Part shown: one piece after another, positions 57,232 to 64,000 of the stretch
How positions within the stretch are numbered: position 1 is the first letter of the stretch
How the letters are laid out: each line of letters begins with the position of its first letter
Source of the DNA: Balneolaceae bacterium
Lineage (GTDB): Bacteria; Bacteroidota; Rhodothermia; Balneolales; Balneolaceae
NCBI GenBank assembly: GCA_007693395.1
Contig: REDS01000119.1
Span: forward strand, 40,104 to 104,103
Direction: 5' to 3'
Length of the DNA stretch: 64,000 nucleotides
Notes under the pieces: generated by a model
The model's input: the letters and a program-made list of their open reading frames with translations, nothing else
What the model was told of the DNA's origin: nothing
The model's database searches: none
Position numbers and translations under genes: made by a program

Positions 57232-57300
57232 TTTTTTTTCGTTTTTAAGTGTAAGGTTTCTGTGATTTTTTGCTCATACTAATAAAAAAGGTATTTACGT

Positions 57301-57618
57301 ATGAAAAAATCACTGATGCTTTCAAACCTTCGCGTAGAAATTCGCAGAAAGCAATCGTCATTCGCGAATGAACGAATGATGCTAAACTGGGTAAAAAGAT
57401 TCTTCGATGAGATGTCCATTGTTCACTCTTCTCAAATAAGAGACTGGCAAAAAGAGATGTTTTTAGCTGATCTTCGGAAAAAAGAAAATGTTTCTTATGA
57501 AGAACTACTCCAGGCAAAATCATCACTTTTCTTTTTGTTTGAAAAAGTGTTGAAGCAATCGGAGTTTTCAAAAATTACTACCGATAGCGAACCCGGATCT
57601 TTCAGGATTACTGCTTGA
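57301..57618 (+). CDS. Small protein resembling a lone tyrosine-recombinase core-binding (SAM-like) domain
   Basis: 105 aa. LRVEIRRKQSSFANERMMLNW, VKRFF, FLADLRKKENVS and QAKSSLFFLFEKVL follow the pattern of the N-terminal core-binding domain of integron-type tyrosine recombinases (LR..IR....S..TE.AY..W...F ... FL..L....NVS...Q..A..AL.FLY..VL). The protein stops where the catalytic domain would begin, so none of the Arg-His-Arg-Tyr residues is present. No catalytic part is encoded just downstream in any frame; the next gene is on the other strand. It may be a remnant or a small DNA-binding protein in its own right. Identification is by eye. Confidence 0.65.
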   Translation: MKKSLMLSNLRVEIRRKQSSFANERMMLNWVKRFFDEMSIVHSSQIRDWQKEMFLADLRKKENVSYEELLQAKSSLFFLFEKVLKQSEFSKITTDSEPGSFRITA

Positions 57619-58269: not shown

Positions 58270-60054
58270 ATGAGTGAATATAACAAAACGCTGCCGGAAA
58301 TTATCTTTGAAGGCCTTAAAAAATATGGTGACGGCCTTTTTGCTTCTACCAAAAGAGGGGGGGAATGGCAACCTACAAATGTTGAAACCTTTATCGAGAA
58401 AACTAAAAATCTTGCAATGGGTTTATATACGTTAGGCGTTAGGCCTGGCAGCAAAGTGGCAATCCATTCTGAGAACTCTACAGAATGGTTGATGTGCGAT
58501 CTGGCCACCCTGTCAATTGGAGCTGCAAATGTTCCTATTTACACTACTCAACCCGGCGATCAGATTAAGTATATACTCGAAAATTCTGATTCTGTGGTTC
58601 ATATTGTATCAAATGATGAGATGTTTGCAGATACAAAACCACTCATTAAATGTGTGAAAAATGTAAAAGCTATTGTATCCATCCAGGGTTCATCACATAA
58701 AAAACTAAAGTCGTTTGATGAAGTTATTGAATCAGGTAAGAAACTGAGAGAAGAAAAGCCCGATCTTTTCGATGAACTAAAGAACGCTATTAAACCGGAT
58801 GATCTTGCCACACTGATTTACACTTCAGGCACTACCGGCTTACCTAAAGGAGTTATGCTTACCCATAGAAATATCGCTTCGAACGTTGTGGCATCCCTCG
58901 AAAAATTACCGTTTGATGCGAGTGAATTCCTGGGCCAAAGAGTACTCTCTTATTTGCCGTTATCGCACGTTTTTGAAAGAATGATTGAGTATATGTATAT
59001 CAGCATGGGGTGCAGAATTTATTACATCGAAGTAGTGGAAGAGATCAGGGATGATTTTGGATATGTTCGCCCGTTCTTTTTTGCTACGGTGCCCCGCTTG
59101 CTTGAAAAAATTCATACCGGTGTAAAAGTAAAAGGGCAGGAGTTATCGGGAGCTCAGAAGAATATTTACTATTGGGCAATATATCGTACAGAAAATTATG
59201 ATCCGGAAAATCCACCATCGAAACTTAATGTAAACCACCGACTGGCGAACAGGCTTGTTTACAGTAAAATACGAGAGCTTTTTGGTGGGAATCTTCGGGG
59301 AATGGTCAGCGGAGGTGCAGCACTATCGCCAGATATTTTTAAATTTATGAATGCAATTGGCTTTATTTGTGTGCAGGGGTACGGCCTGACGGAAACATCC
59401 CCGGTAATTACAGTGCAGGCACCCGGTGCCATGAGAATTGGCAGCTCAGGAAAAACTATTCGTGATGTAGAGGTGAAAATTGCCGAAGATGGTGAGATTC
59501 TTTCCAGAGGGCCGCATATCATGAAAGGTTATTATAAAGATGAGGAGCAGACTAAAGAAGTAATGACCGATGATGGCTGGTTCAAAACCGGCGATATCGG
59601 TAAGATTGATGATGACGGTTTTCTCTACATTACCGACAGGAAAAAGTCGATGTTTAAGCTATCCACTGGAAAATATGTAGCACCTCAGAATGTGGAAAAT
59701 CATATTTCAGGATCAGGTTTTATTGAGCAGGCTGTAGTGATCGGATATCAGCGAAAATTCTGTTCTGCACTCATTGTGCCGGCATACGACAATGTACTGA
59801 AACGCCTGAAGCGTGATGGGTATGAGCCATCAAAACCTTTTGCGAAAGATGAAAAGATACGGGAACTCATTCAGGGTGAAGTTGATAAAGCCAATAAAAA
59901 TGTATCTCCATGGGAAACAGTAAAGAAATTCGTACTGCTCGAAGAGCCATTAACAATCGACAGTGGCGAACTTACACCAACCATGAAAGTGAAGCGACCT
60001 GTTGTTCTCGAGAAATACAAGGAGGAGATTGAATCGATGTATGGGGATGAGTAG
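58270..60054 (+). CDS. Long-chain fatty acid-CoA ligase (AMP-binding)
   Basis: 594 aa ANL-superfamily enzyme that activates fatty acids to acyl-CoA. P-loop TLIYTSGTTGLPKG (about 181-194), YLPLSHVFERM (the FACS-type linker), GYGLTETSPVI, and DGWFKTGDIGKIDDDGFLYITDRKK (in parts) with the C-terminal Lys region are present. Length and the LSHVFER motif place it with long-chain ligases (FAA1/FadD15-like). The TAG stop is the first triplet of heptamer repeat cluster R1. Confidence 0.95.
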   Translation: MSEYNKTLPEIIFEGLKKYGDGLFASTKRGGEWQPTNVETFIEKTKNLAMGLYTLGVRPGSKVAIHSENSTEWLMCDLATLSIGAANVPIYTTQPGDQIKYILENSDSVVHIVSNDEMFADTKPLIKCVKNVKAIVSIQGSSHKKLKSFDEVIESGKKLREEKPDLFDELKNAIKPDDLATLIYTSGTTGLPKGVMLTHRNIASNVVASLEKLPFDASEFLGQRVLSYLPLSHVFERMIEYMYISMGCRIYYIEVVEEIRDDFGYVRPFFFATVPRLLEKIHTGVKVKGQELSGAQKNIYYWAIYRTENYDPENPPSKLNVNHRLANRLVYSKIRELFGGNLRGMVSGGAALSPDIFKFMNAIGFICVQGYGLTETSPVITVQAPGAMRIGSSGKTIRDVEVKIAEDGEILSRGPHIMKGYYKDEEQTKEVMTDDGWFKTGDIGKIDDDGFLYITDRKKSMFKLSTGKYVAPQNVENHISGSGFIEQAVVIGYQRKFCSALIVPAYDNVLKRLKRDGYEPSKPFAKDEKIRELIQGEVDKANKNVSPWETVKKFVLLEEPLTIDSGELTPTMKVKRPVVLEKYKEEIESMYGDE

Positions 60055-60077
60055 TCGTGAGTCTTGAGTCCTGAGTA
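60052..60077 (+). repeat. Heptamer repeat cluster R1 (GTCNTGA x3)
   Basis: Three tandem heptamers, GTCGTGA-GTCTTGA-GTCCTGA (60054-60074), preceded by TA and followed by GTA. The first three bases TAG are the in-frame stop of the acyl-CoA ligase. Nineteen bases (60052-60070) are the exact reverse complement of 63103-63121 in R4. Confidence 0.9.
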
Positions 60078-60155
60078 TTTAGAAAGGCCTGGGACATCGG
60101 ATAAGATTCACGCATATAATAAGAATAAGCTCCGGAATTAAATTCTAAGAAAATC

Positions 60156-60186
60156 TCATGACACAAGACTCACGACTCAAGACTAA
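60156..60186 (+). repeat. Heptamer repeat cluster R2 (TCANGAC x4), overlaps the fadN start
   Basis: Four tandem units TCATGAC-ACAAGAC-TCACGAC-TCAAGAC (60156-60183) followed by TAA. The ATG inside the first unit is the start codon of the FadN-like gene, so the array encodes MTQDSRLKT. Bases 60164-60186 are the exact reverse complement (23 bp) of 62536-62558 in R3. Confidence 0.9.
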
Positions 60187-62539
60187 AAAAATCCAAAACG
60201 TCATCATCCTCGGCTCAGGTGTCATGGGCAGCCAGATTGCCGCGCACTGTGTGAATGCCGGATTGAAGGTGAAGCTGCTGGACCTGAAATCGGACGATCC
60301 CAAACGGCCGAACAAGACGGCGGAAGAGAATATTCAGAAACTGACCAAAATGAACCCGGCGCCTCTGGGCGACCCGGAGTGGACGGAGAGGATTTCGCCG
60401 GGTAATTTTGAGGATCACCTGGAGTGGGTGAAAGATGCAGACTGGGTCTGCGAGGTGATTGTGGAGCGGATGGATATCAAAAAGGAGATGATGGCGAAAC
60501 TGGAGAAGGTGCGCAGGCCGGGCACCATTGTGAGCTCCAACACCTCCGGGCTGCCGATTTCCGATATCAGCGAAGATGTCTCTGATGAGTTCAAAGCTCA
60601 TTTCCTCGGCACGCACTTCTTCAATCCGCCGCGCTATATGAAGCTGCTGGAGATCATACCGACCGAAACCACGGATGATGCGGTGACGCAGTACATGACC
60701 GGCTTCTGCGAAAAAATCCTCGGTAAAGGCGTGGTGATCTGCAAGGATACACCCAACTTCATCGCCAACCGGATCGGCGTCTTTTCGATGGCGTCGATGA
60801 TGCCGTGGTTTTTTGACGGGAAGTTCCGCGCAGAGGAGATCGACTTTCTGACCGGCACCCTCACCGGCTACTCCAAGGCGGCAACGTTCCGAACCGCTGA
60901 TATGGCCGGGCTTGATGTGCTGAACCACGTGGCCGAAAACCTCTATCCCGCGGTGCCGGATGATGAGCGCAGGGAAGCGTTCAAACTTCCTGAGGGATTT
61001 AAGGAAATGGTAGAGAAGGGTGCCCATGGAAATAAGAAAGGGCACGGGTTTTATAAAAAAGTGAAGGGCAACAAGGGAAATGAATACCACGTGGTGGATC
61101 CCGAAACGCTGGAGTATGAAAAGCAGCAGGATGTTTCGTTTGATTCGGCCGATAAAGCCAAAAAGGAGTACAAAACCTCAGGTGAGCGGCTGAAATTTAT
61201 GGTGAACCGGGATGACAAGGCCGGGAAATTTTTGTGGGAGATACACTGCGATCTGCTGCTCTACTCCGCCAACCGCATTCCGGAGATCACAGATTCGGTT
61301 GAGTCGATCGACCGCGCGATGCAGTGGGGCTTCAACTGGGAGCTCGGGCCGTTTCAACGGTGGGACGCTATCGGGGTAGAGGAGTCGGTAAAACGAATGG
61401 AAGAGGAGGAACGAACGGTTCCCGAATCTGTGAAGAAAATGCTTGACAGCGGTCGCAAATCCTTTTACAAGGATGACGGCACCGTGTACAATCTGGCCAC
61501 CGGCAAGGCGGAAGATCTTACCTCGCCGGCAAAAGGGGCGATTACCGTATCCTCGCTCAAACGAAATGGCAAGGAGGTGTGGGGCAACAAGAGTGCCGGC
61601 CTGTACGATATGGGCGATGGTGTGGCATTGTTCGAGTTCCGCACCAAAAACCAGACGCTCGGTTTTGAGCTGGTGAAGTCGGTGGATGAAGCCGCTGAAA
61701 TTGTGAAGGAGCAGTTCGACGCGATGGTGATCGGCCACGACCATGAGAATTTCAGCTATGGCGCCAACCTGGGCGAGGCCGGGGAAGCCCTGAAAAGCGG
61801 TGATTTTGGAAAGATCAACGATGCTGTGAACAATTTCCAGCGTGTGGCTGTCGGACTGCGATACCGGCCGTTTCCGGTGATCGGTGCTGTATCGGGCCGC
61901 TGCTTCGGCGGCGGGGTGGAGTTTATGATGCACTGCGACAAGGTGGTGGCGCATCACGAGCTCTACTGTGGACTGGTGGAGCTGGGTGTTGGGCTTATTC
62001 CCGCCGGGGGTGGCACAAAAGAGCTGCTGCTCCGCGCCATGGAGAAGGTGAAGGAGGAAGAGGATGCCGATCCGCTGCCCTACCTGAAGGACGCTTTTAA
62101 AACCATCGGCATGGCAAAAGTCTCCGATGGCGCACCGAAGGCGAAAAAGCTGGGCTACTTACGCGATACCGACATGATTGTGATGCACCGCGACCTGCTC
62201 CTTGCCACAGCCAAACAGCAGGCCAGGGCGATGGCCGACGCGGGCTATCGTCCACCGGCAGAGCCGAAGATCAAACTGACGGGCCAGACCGGCAAAAGCG
62301 TACTCGATGTCACCGTCTACATCATGACTGAAGCGAAATGGGCCTCACCGTACGACAAGGTCCTCGCCGGAAAAGTGGCCGAAATCATGACCGGCGGTGA
62401 TCTCAGCGAAGCCCAGGAAGTGCCCGAATCGTACGTGCTGAAACTGGAGCGCGAAGCGATCCTGGAGTGCTTCAAGGATGAGCGAACGCATAAGAGGATG
62501 GAGCATATGTTGAAGACGGGGAAACCTCTTAGAAATTAG
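60158..62539 (+). CDS. fadN: Bifunctional 3-hydroxyacyl-CoA dehydrogenase/enoyl-CoA hydratase (FadN-like)
   Basis: 793 aa. The NAD-binding dehydrogenase half comes first (VIILGSGVMGSQIAAH at about 15-30, SSNTSGLPISDI, GTHFFNPPRYMKLLEIIPT in parts). The crotonase-type hydratase half is at the C-terminus (VIGAVSGRCFGGGVEFMMHCD in parts, GLVELGVGLIPAGGGTKELL in parts). This order matches Bacillus FadN, the reverse of FadB/FadJ. The only start before the NAD loop is the ATG inside repeat R2; the TAG stop belongs to R3. GC by hand count of one 60-base line is about 57%, versus about 43% in the ligase and 35% in the next small gene. This suggests a different origin or codon use. Confidence 0.94.
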   Translation: MTQDSRLKTKKIQNVIILGSGVMGSQIAAHCVNAGLKVKLLDLKSDDPKRPNKTAEENIQKLTKMNPAPLGDPEWTERISPGNFEDHLEWVKDADWVCEVIVERMDIKKEMMAKLEKVRRPGTIVSSNTSGLPISDISEDVSDEFKAHFLGTHFFNPPRYMKLLEIIPTETTDDAVTQYMTGFCEKILGKGVVICKDTPNFIANRIGVFSMASMMPWFFDGKFRAEEIDFLTGTLTGYSKAATFRTADMAGLDVLNHVAENLYPAVPDDERREAFKLPEGFKEMVEKGAHGNKKGHGFYKKVKGNKGNEYHVVDPETLEYEKQQDVSFDSADKAKKEYKTSGERLKFMVNRDDKAGKFLWEIHCDLLLYSANRIPEITDSVESIDRAMQWGFNWELGPFQRWDAIGVEESVKRMEEEERTVPESVKKMLDSGRKSFYKDDGTVYNLATGKAEDLTSPAKGAITVSSLKRNGKEVWGNKSAGLYDMGDGVALFEFRTKNQTLGFELVKSVDEAAEIVKEQFDAMVIGHDHENFSYGANLGEAGEALKSGDFGKINDAVNNFQRVAVGLRYRPFPVIGAVSGRCFGGGVEFMMHCDKVVAHHELYCGLVELGVGLIPAGGGTKELLLRAMEKVKEEEDADPLPYLKDAFKTIGMAKVSDGAPKAKKLGYLRDTDMIVMHRDLLLATAKQQARAMADAGYRPPAEPKIKLTGQTGKSVLDVTVYIMTEAKWASPYDKVLAGKVAEIMTGGDLSEAQEVPESYVLKLEREAILECFKDERTHKRMEHMLKTGKPLRN

Positions 62540-62560
62540 TCTTGAGTCGTGAGTCTTGAG
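62536..62560 (+). repeat. Heptamer repeat cluster R3 (GTCNTGA x3), overlaps the fadN stop
   Basis: Units GTCTTGA-GTCGTGA-GTCTTGA (62539-62559). The TAG at 62537-62539 is the fadN stop. It forms a 23-bp perfect inverted pair with R2, so the fadN coding region is framed by inverted repeats lying directly on its two ends. Confidence 0.9.
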
Positions 62561-62683
62561 ATTTTGAACTCATTTTTAGATTTATATCAATATCCACAAA
62601 TACAAAATGGACTTACTTTCACACTTCAATCTACTCAACATCTTCAAGACTAATAAAAAAGTGTAAGGAAATTTTGATACCGG

Positions 62684-62709
62684 GTTCATATAGTTAAGTC
62701 AATATGAAC
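62684..62709. promoter_or_regulatory. Small dyad upstream of the four-helix-bundle gene
   Basis: GTTCATAT (62684-62691) and ATATGAAC (62702-62709) are exact reverse complements with a 10-nt spacer, ending 15 bp before the ATG of the small gene. It could be an operator or a translational hairpin. Confidence 0.35.
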
Positions 62710-62724
62710 TTAATCTGGTGAATT

Positions 62725-63078
62725 ATGGATAATTTTAGAAATTTGATTGTATGGAAACGTGCTGTTGAATTGGCAACAAGTGTTTATCGTAAAACCGTAA
62801 ACTTTCCCAAATATGAACTTTATGGATTAACCTCACAAATAAGGAGATCAGCAGTTTCAATCAGCTCAAATATTGCTGAAGGCGCGGGTCGAAGGTCAAA
62901 GAAAGAGTTCGCCAACTTCCTTGGAATCTCTTATGGATCTGCCTGTGAATTGGAAACACAGTTACTGATCGCAAGAAATCTGGAATACTTAGCTCAAACT
63001 GATTTTGATTCTCTTTTCCAAGAATTAAACGAAATTCAAAAAATGCTCTACGCCCTGGAAAAGAAACAACGCAACTAA
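62725..63078 (+). CDS. Four-helix-bundle protein (S23 / 23S rRNA intervening-sequence protein family, Avd-like)
   Basis: 117 aa. NFRNLIVWKRAVELATSVYRK at the N-terminus, YGLTSQIRRSAVSISSNIAEG, GRRSKKEFANFLGISYGSACELETQL (in parts) and the helical C-terminus are the hallmarks of the family first found in rRNA intervening sequences and related to Avd of diversity-generating retroelements. Avd is basic and binds RNA/reverse transcriptase, but the role of free-standing members is not established. The gene is not in rRNA here. It lies between fadN and the thiolase, inside heptamer arrays R3 and R4. Confidence 0.92.
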   Translation: MDNFRNLIVWKRAVELATSVYRKTVNFPKYELYGLTSQIRRSAVSISSNIAEGAGRRSKKEFANFLGISYGSACELETQLLIARNLEYLAQTDFDSLFQELNEIQKMLYALEKKQRN

Positions 63079-63091
63079 ATCCAATTCCCTC

Positions 63092-63122
63092 TCATGACTC
63101 AAGACTCAAGACTCACGACTAA
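63092..63122 (+). repeat. Heptamer repeat cluster R4 (TCANGAC x4), overlaps the thiolase start
   Basis: Units TCATGAC-TCAAGAC-TCAAGAC-TCACGAC (63092-63119) followed by TAAA. The ATG in the first unit is the thiolase start, giving MTQDSRLTTK, nearly the same N-terminus as FadN. Nineteen bases pair exactly with R1. Confidence 0.9.
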
Positions 63123-64000
63123 ACAAAACGAAATCTTCATCGTAGCCGCAAAACGAACCGCCTGCGGAAAGGCCAACAAAGGCTCCCTACGTTTCACTCG
63201 TCCCGATTCGCTGATGGGTGAAATCATCAAAGACCTTTTAAAGCACGCTCCTGCTGTTAAACCCGAAATGGTGGATGACGTCATCGTCGGCTGTGCCTTT
63301 CCCGAAGGGTCTCAGGGGATGAATGTTGCGCGGCAGGCGGTATTTCTGGGTGGGTTGCCCGATTCGGTTCCCGGAATGACGATCAACCGGTTCTGTTCGT
63401 CGGGTTTGCAGACGATCGCCATGGCTGCGGAACGGATAATGGCGAGTGGTGCGGAGATCATGATTGCCGGTGGGGTTGAGAGTATGAGTCAGGTGCCGAT
63501 GGGAGGGGTGTCATTTCAGCCGAATCCCGATCTGGCTGATCAGCGTCCGGAGGTCTATATCAACATGGGGCTGACGGCAGAGAATGTGGCGGACAAATAT
63601 GGTGTGAGCCGGGAAGATCAGGATCAGTTTGCATTCAATAGCCATCAAAAGGCGATTAAAGCGTGGGAAGAGGGGTACTTTGATGAGCAGATCACACCGG
63701 TTGAGGTGGTTCACAAGTATGTAACCGCTGACGGCGAAGTGGAAGAGAATAAATTTTCCTTTGTAAAGGATGAAGGTCCTCGCAAGGATACCAATATGGA
63801 AGCACTCGGCGGACTGCGCGCCGTGTTCAAAACAGGCGGTACCGTCACAGCCGGAAACTCCTCACAAATGAATGATGCTGCTGCAGGCGTACTGGTGATG
63901 AGCCGCAAAAAAGCGGATGAGTTGGGCCTGAAGCCGATCGCTCGGTATCACGGATTTGCCGTGGCGGGTGTGGCACCGGAGATTATGGGAATCGGCCCGG
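63094..64000 (+). CDS. fadA: Acetyl-CoA acyltransferase / 3-ketoacyl-CoA thiolase (partial, runs off window)
   Basis: About 302 codons are visible with no stop before the right edge. After a repeat-encoded MTQDSRLTTK, the thiolase body begins EIFIVAAKRTACGKANKGS. The nucleophile Cys lies in INRFCSSGLQTIA, followed by GGVESMSQVP, SREDQDQFAFNSHQKA and TVTAGNSSQMNDAAAGVLVMS (in parts). The C-terminal His and Cys motifs fall beyond the window. No other ATG, GTG or TTG precedes the conserved start, so the repeat supplies the initiator. It completes beta-oxidation with FadN. Hand-counted GC of one line is about 57%. Confidence 0.93.
   Translation, partial: MTQDSRLTTKQNEIFIVAAKRTACGKANKGSLRFTRPDSLMGEIIKDLLKHAPAVKPEMVDDVIVGCAFPEGSQGMNVARQAVFLGGLPDSVPGMTINRFCSSGLQTIAMAAERIMASGAEIMIAGGVESMSQVPMGGVSFQPNPDLADQRPEVYINMGLTAENVADKYGVSREDQDQFAFNSHQKAIKAWEEGYFDEQITPVEVVHKYVTADGEVEENKFSFVKDEGPRKDTNMEALGGLRAVFKTGGTVTAGNSSQMNDAAAGVLVMSRKKADELGLKPIARYHGFAVAGVAPEIMGIGP

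Follow-up and report, generated by a model that had tools for sequence, protein, structure and literature searches.

The fad operon in the 64,000-nucleotide stretch of Balneolaceae DNA analysed here (the window) raises the question of what has placed inverted arrays of a 7-bp repeat at two of its gene junctions, once with and once without a gene between them. Its genes, all on the forward strand and assigned by profile matches, encode a fadD-like acyl-CoA ligase (58270–60054), a fadN-like 3-hydroxyacyl-CoA dehydrogenase / enoyl-CoA hydratase (60158–62539) and a fadA-like thiolase (63094–63999, continuing past the window end). Array pattern search places GTCNTGA arrays at 60052–60077 (R1) and 62536–62560 (R3), and TCANGAC arrays at 60156–60186 (R2) and 63092–63122 (R4). 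These form two inverted pairs, R1–R2 at fadD-fadN and R3–R4 at fadN-fadA, flanking fadN on both sides. R2 and the reverse complement of R3 have 23 bp in common (CAAGACTCACGACTCAAGACTAA), and R1 and the reverse complement of R4 have 19 bp in common (TAGTCGTGAGTCTTGAGTC); the first-pass annotation had reported these arrays and inverted matches, and direct reading confirmed all of them. The two-unit heptamer pattern has 10 matches in the window, all within R1–R4, where shuffles expect 0.14.

The arrays run into the coding sequences. The TAG at 60052–60054 in R1 is the fadD stop, the TAG at 62537–62539 in R3 is the fadN stop, and TCATGAC units hold ATG 60158 (fadN, in R2) and ATG 63094 (fadA, in R4), by reading the only plausible starts of these two genes. 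FadN and FadA consequently both begin MTQDSRL, and what had been described earlier of in-frame stops, starts and a common N-terminus holds for the three fad genes. Relatives without the right array start elsewhere (fadN with MPSKKFNIQNV.., fadA with MNTEIVIV..), and therefore the right array has replaced an old start codon here.

Between R1 and R2 lie 78 bp (60078–60155) without a gene. By eye, this interior resembles the fadD-fadN interiors of loci L031, L033, L034, L039 and L044 and shows no evident similarity to what lies inside the long element; the whole 140-nt hairpin of the gene-less element folds as RNA with z = -4.6. The long element holds, between R3 and R4, a degenerate inner TCANGAC array (62634–62653) that has an intact counterpart at this position in L033, L035 and L044, a promoter-like leader motif TGTAAGG-N16-TTCATAT (62662–62691, forward strand), and a gene for a protein of 117 aa (62725–63078, forward strand). 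The leader recurs upstream of similar genes of Bacteroidota and Balneolota, a TGTAAG-like motif being found before 67 of 161 such genes vs 9 control windows. A promoter-like TGTAAGG-N-TCATAC (57250–57279) also precedes an ORF at 57301–57618 with an integrase SAM-like N-terminal domain (PF13495), around which no heptamer arms were seen.

The gene within the long element, unrecognised in the first-pass annotation, is the key to the nature of that element. Its product, here called IVP, is a four-helix-bundle protein matching the full domain of both PF05635 (2e-41; 140.9 bits vs a cut-off of 33.8) and TIGR02436 (2e-40; 137.2 bits vs 24), with solved relatives in PDB entries 2gsc and 2rld. This family is the one encoded in, and named after, the intervening sequences (IVS) of 23S rRNA genes. 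In agreement with a 23S IVS, the window copy has inverted termini that pair into a long stem enclosing the IVP gene; it differs in location, sitting between two protein genes, fadN and fadA. Membership in the DGR Avd group was considered and rejected: the matches to bAvd (9e-5, 23.4 bits vs 40) and to NF033474 (Avd; 8e-5, 22.9 bits vs 80) are weak and fall under both curated cut-offs, and no reverse transcriptase lies between the arms. A PADLOC search gave no match. PF05635 genes are common in this part of the tree, with seven matches in the own genome (six above cut-off) and presence in 45 of 59 relatives; across the phylum, 157 of 198 sampled genomes have them, with up to 16 copies each.

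For 161 distinct IVP genes from Balneolota and Bacteroidota, each taken with its two flanks, we scored the best inverted match between those flanks, counting a score of at least 30 as arms. This score was reached by 95/161, vs 2/161 with swapped flanks and 17/161 for direct matches, and the median best inverted match was 33 for own flanks vs 18 for flanks of different IVPs; the remaining 66/161 lack arms at this threshold. Tandem arrays with a lag of 7 occur on 29% of IVP sides vs 4% of control windows 650–1050 bp off (13/318), and other lags are near zero, save lag 8 plus multiples of 7 and 8. About 70 different canonical 7-bp units were seen, nearly all of them once, and where both flanks carry an array the units match inverted in 15/25 and direct in 3. 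The same holds at home: the other IVP genes of the own genome are also flanked by 7-periodic or inverted repeats, some clear and some degenerate, with units that differ per copy (GTGAAAA, GAAGACA, GGTTACA and others). The 7-bp arm unit is specific to the element lineage and complementary between both ends. Read in the IVP direction, left arms are rich in G and poor in C (0.28 vs 0.11), and right arms show the reverse (95 elements, L031–L246).

Across these 95 elements, stop codons occur in left arms at the rate expected from composition and in right arms above that rate; right arms seldom contain an ATG. The idea that arms are designed suppliers of stops and starts, which had been read from the window as a trait of the elements, fails on these codon rates; such supply is local to the fad operon.

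Arm sequence follows IVP sequence. At non-orthologous sites, the median local score between left arms climbs with IVP identity, from 11 below 40% to 14 at 50–59%, 17 at 60–69% and 32 at 70–79%. IVP pairs of at least 55% identity have a mean arm score of 19.3 vs 12.5 when permuted, a value reached in 0 of 2000 permutations, and neighbouring DNA lacks the trend (rho -0.02 vs 0.24 for arms). The nearest IVP to that of the window away from fadN-fadA (L081 in genome G011) likewise has GTCNTGA arms. Since arm similarity tracks IVP identity at unrelated sites, arms and gene share a history; judged from sequence comparison, they most likely travel together as one unit.

The preference for gene boundaries noted at the outset proved strong. 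Where the upstream gene runs in the same direction, the left arm begins a median of 4 nt past its stop (within 10 nt in 45/74), and the right arm ends a median of 7 nt ahead of the downstream start (within 10 nt in 31/67). Between tandem genes, 60 IVP genes point with the operon direction and 14 against it (p 6e-8). Named examples of sites are cas6-IVP-cas4 and cas10-IVP-cmr3, and a reversed IVP is inserted between nrdB and nrdA.

Orthologous junctions in relatives differ in state (empty, IVP, gene-less arrays, other units), which bears out the gain and loss that the first-pass annotation had anticipated. At fadN-fadA, an IVP gene is present in 8 of 24 comparable loci, the rest being empty or having arrays only or an element with a DUF559 gene. 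In 18 fadN-fadA loci with an IVP the left arm starts at the fadN stop, and its unit differs (GTCNTGA, TTGAGTA, TTAGATA, AAAGTCG, GGTAGAT). At L076 the fadA start is still supplied by an old GTCNTGA right array, which now follows an IVP element whose arms are different, a layout that indicates layered insertion. The fixC and fixX genes are overlapping or directly adjacent outside the genus (L324–L326), and in most genomes of the genus they are separated by different heptamer elements, IVP or reversed IVP being among the states; L303 keeps only an apparent C-terminal remnant of an IVP, and L302 has arms and leader with the IVP gene absent. Orthologous junctions have clearly gained, lost and exchanged elements. 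In an AU test, one common origin for the IVPs at fadN-fadA was not rejected (p = 0.27), and therefore the case for independent insertions there rests on the layering at L076 and on the junction states. The DUF559 (PF04480) endonuclease-like ORF represents a second single-gene element at fadN-fadA in relatives (L032:8597–8986, L036:3602–3991), with ends rich in ccctcctt / aaccaccccta; a candidate fragment of this type lies at fadD-fadN (L045:5747–5935).

GTCNTGA arrays are dispersed well beyond the fad operon. As had been predicted, the own genome contains other copies: 40 three-unit matches (up to 2 mismatches allowed), spread over 13 contigs and about 15 sites, vs 5 for the reversed pattern. 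Such arrays occur in 21/27 genomes of the genus (0–114 matches), and outside it their counts hardly exceed the reversed-pattern control. Over 28 genomes of the genus, array count correlates with window-type IVP (rho 0.49, p 0.008), a relation confounded by relatedness. The expectation that arrays come in inverted pairs was borne out in part: the array-rich relative G014 has 10 GTCNTGA pairs lacking an IVP, and 28/38 of its arrays have no partner under a strict search. The interiors of these 10 pairs showed no mutual similarity. The view of the two fad elements as copies of one family accordingly stands as to their arms, which are alike and belong to a dispersed, inverted-ended family of which one kind carries a gene; no common interior was seen. 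GTCNTGA arrays or hairpins also appear just upstream of apparent successive tRNA genes in the same relative (L395, G014:C187, about 576–1040), and on contig C22 of the own genome three GTCNTGA hairpins (L003, L005, L023) lie directly before putative trpS-like, trpG-like and trpB-like genes.

Our main reading, to which we give a probability of about 0.72, is that R3-IVP-R4 (62536–63122) belongs to a widespread family of miniature elements, each with one IVP gene between inverted arms of degenerate 7-bp repeats and about 490 bp in all. R1–R2 (60052–60186) shares these arms and is a relative without a gene, most likely either the remnant of an older element or one moved in trans. The elements would have moved as DNA in the past, with the IVP perhaps recognising its own element's arms and working with a host or element enzyme, and sites at gene boundaries may be those left after the loss of insertions that disrupted coding sequence. 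DNA-level templated copying between arms (hairpin or quasipalindrome correction) together with 7-bp slippage would account for arms that stay matched as their units drift. No target-site duplication was detected (own 4.11 vs swapped 3.98 nt), and among the 161 IVPs no near-identical ones were found in different contexts. Flanks are shared in 14/14 IVP pairs with at least 80% DNA identity; movement is therefore old or rare, with no recent transposition visible in the sample. Classification as a MITE or other non-autonomous transposon was rejected, there being no target-site duplication and no common interior among the 10 GTCNTGA pairs of G014.

The elements might instead never have moved, the hairpins stabilising mRNA, coupling translation or being RNase III sites, and the IVP being an RNA-binding partner. 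The arrays do fold well as RNA (z -4.6 to -9.7), the element favours the operon direction, such action has been proposed for cyanobacterial 7-bp STRR hairpins between genes (PMC2670836), and RNase III cuts the 23S IVS (PMC4990558). However, mismatches between arms show no excess of G-U over A-C (124 vs 135), and RNA pairing is thus unlikely as the force that keeps arms matched; element presence and unit also vary among relatives at one junction, and we regard a static RNA function as improbable. We rate slightly lower still an origin of the arrays by local polymerase slippage, with a chance palindrome and hairpin-templated copying inverting them and an unrelated IVP often nearby. Long perfect heptamer arrays exist, heptanucleotides frequently lead their class of bacterial repeats in abundance (PMC4679880), and both the unpaired arrays of G014 and the lack of a common interior in its paired ones fit; yet 7-bp arrays bracket IVP genes specifically, and arms covary with IVP sequence at unrelated sites.

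Less remote, though still unlikely, is the IVP as a passenger, with a trans-acting enzyme (a REP-associated tyrosine transposase, a reverse transcriptase or another) moving anything so armed. Gene-less pairs occur, and the IVP is small, has no known catalytic domain and weakly resembles bAvd/Avd, a reverse-transcriptase accessory protein. Between the arms we found no transposase, recombinase or reverse transcriptase, and in particular no RAYT tyrosine transposase (PF01797). The covariation of IVP and arms weighs against a mere passenger, an IVP that reads the arms being its simplest account, although co-transfer alone could also produce it. We can go further only tentatively, and hold the following more doubtful than not: the IVP may be a recognition factor of an undescribed class of mobile elements, each lineage's protein reading its own arms, with arms that drift and yet stay complementary by DNA-templated copying, and with the 23S IVS and the cyanobacterial heptamer hairpins as special cases.

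The window element is an IVS-type element in a protein operon, with copy-specific inverted heptamer arms. In Coxiella, the 23S rRNA IVS has a PF05635/S23p gene, with the IVP between inverted terminal repeats, and has been termed a selfish element (PMC4990558). An IVP gene between inverted termini is common to both, and an Azospirillum copy (L256) within a 23S rRNA gene, where Rfam RF02541 spans the IVP, has 36-nt arms of GAGGACG/GATGACA units and an own inverted score of 47. In the open-access literature on 23S IVS we found no description of a heptamer make-up, of copy-specific units or of arm/IVP covariation. The window arrays are also, like STRRs, short tandem 7-bp repeats that can form hairpins between operon genes (PMC2670836); the difference is that cyanobacterial IVP genes here carry such arrays as arms, a link for which we found no open-access report. 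TAACTGA repeats of Beggiatoaceae, cyanobacteria and some Bacteroidetes are likewise intergenic heptamer arrays near start codons, patchy and suspected of horizontal transfer, but are almost always direct and of one unit, with no gene association reported (PMC4679880). The earlier label "REP-like" survives as a loose analogy: REPs and REPINs are also small, dispersed, inverted intergenic repeats with gene-less beside gene-bearing forms, whereas here there are tandem heptamers in place of a short palindrome, PF05635 in place of a tyrosine transposase, and a unit that varies per copy. DGR Avd is a remote four-helix-bundle relative of the IVP, but neither a reverse transcriptase nor a repeat pair was seen here. 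Our search of the open-access literature, with subscription papers outside its scope, returned no paper describing heptamer arms around IVP genes and no settled role for PF05635.

The finding is genuine, and it reaches further than the first-pass annotation supposed. Two curiosities, the intervening sequences of 23S rRNA and the heptamer hairpins of cyanobacteria, are brought together by the link between IVP and arms, which also gives the IVP a testable role; the natural series of protein/repeat pairs offers a route to a recognition code, and the elements show one route by which the spacing of operon genes, and start codons as well, get remodelled. The layout recurs in other phyla. Among 12 plasmid-borne IVPs (11 cyanobacterial and the one from Azospirillum), 9 score about 30 or higher for the inverted match vs a swapped median of 19, with arm units such as GGGAGTA, GGGAACA, AAAAGGG and GGGTGTA. 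Arms were also found in 5 of 7 acidobacterial and deltaproteobacterial loci tested; the strongest single match of that set, in L334, resembles coding sequence and was excluded from the support. CRISPR-cas operons on cyanobacterial plasmids hold IVP elements between cas6 and cas4 or cas10 and cmr3 (L253, L255, L258), and a figure legend in a CRISPR survey names an IVP domain (PMC10910872).
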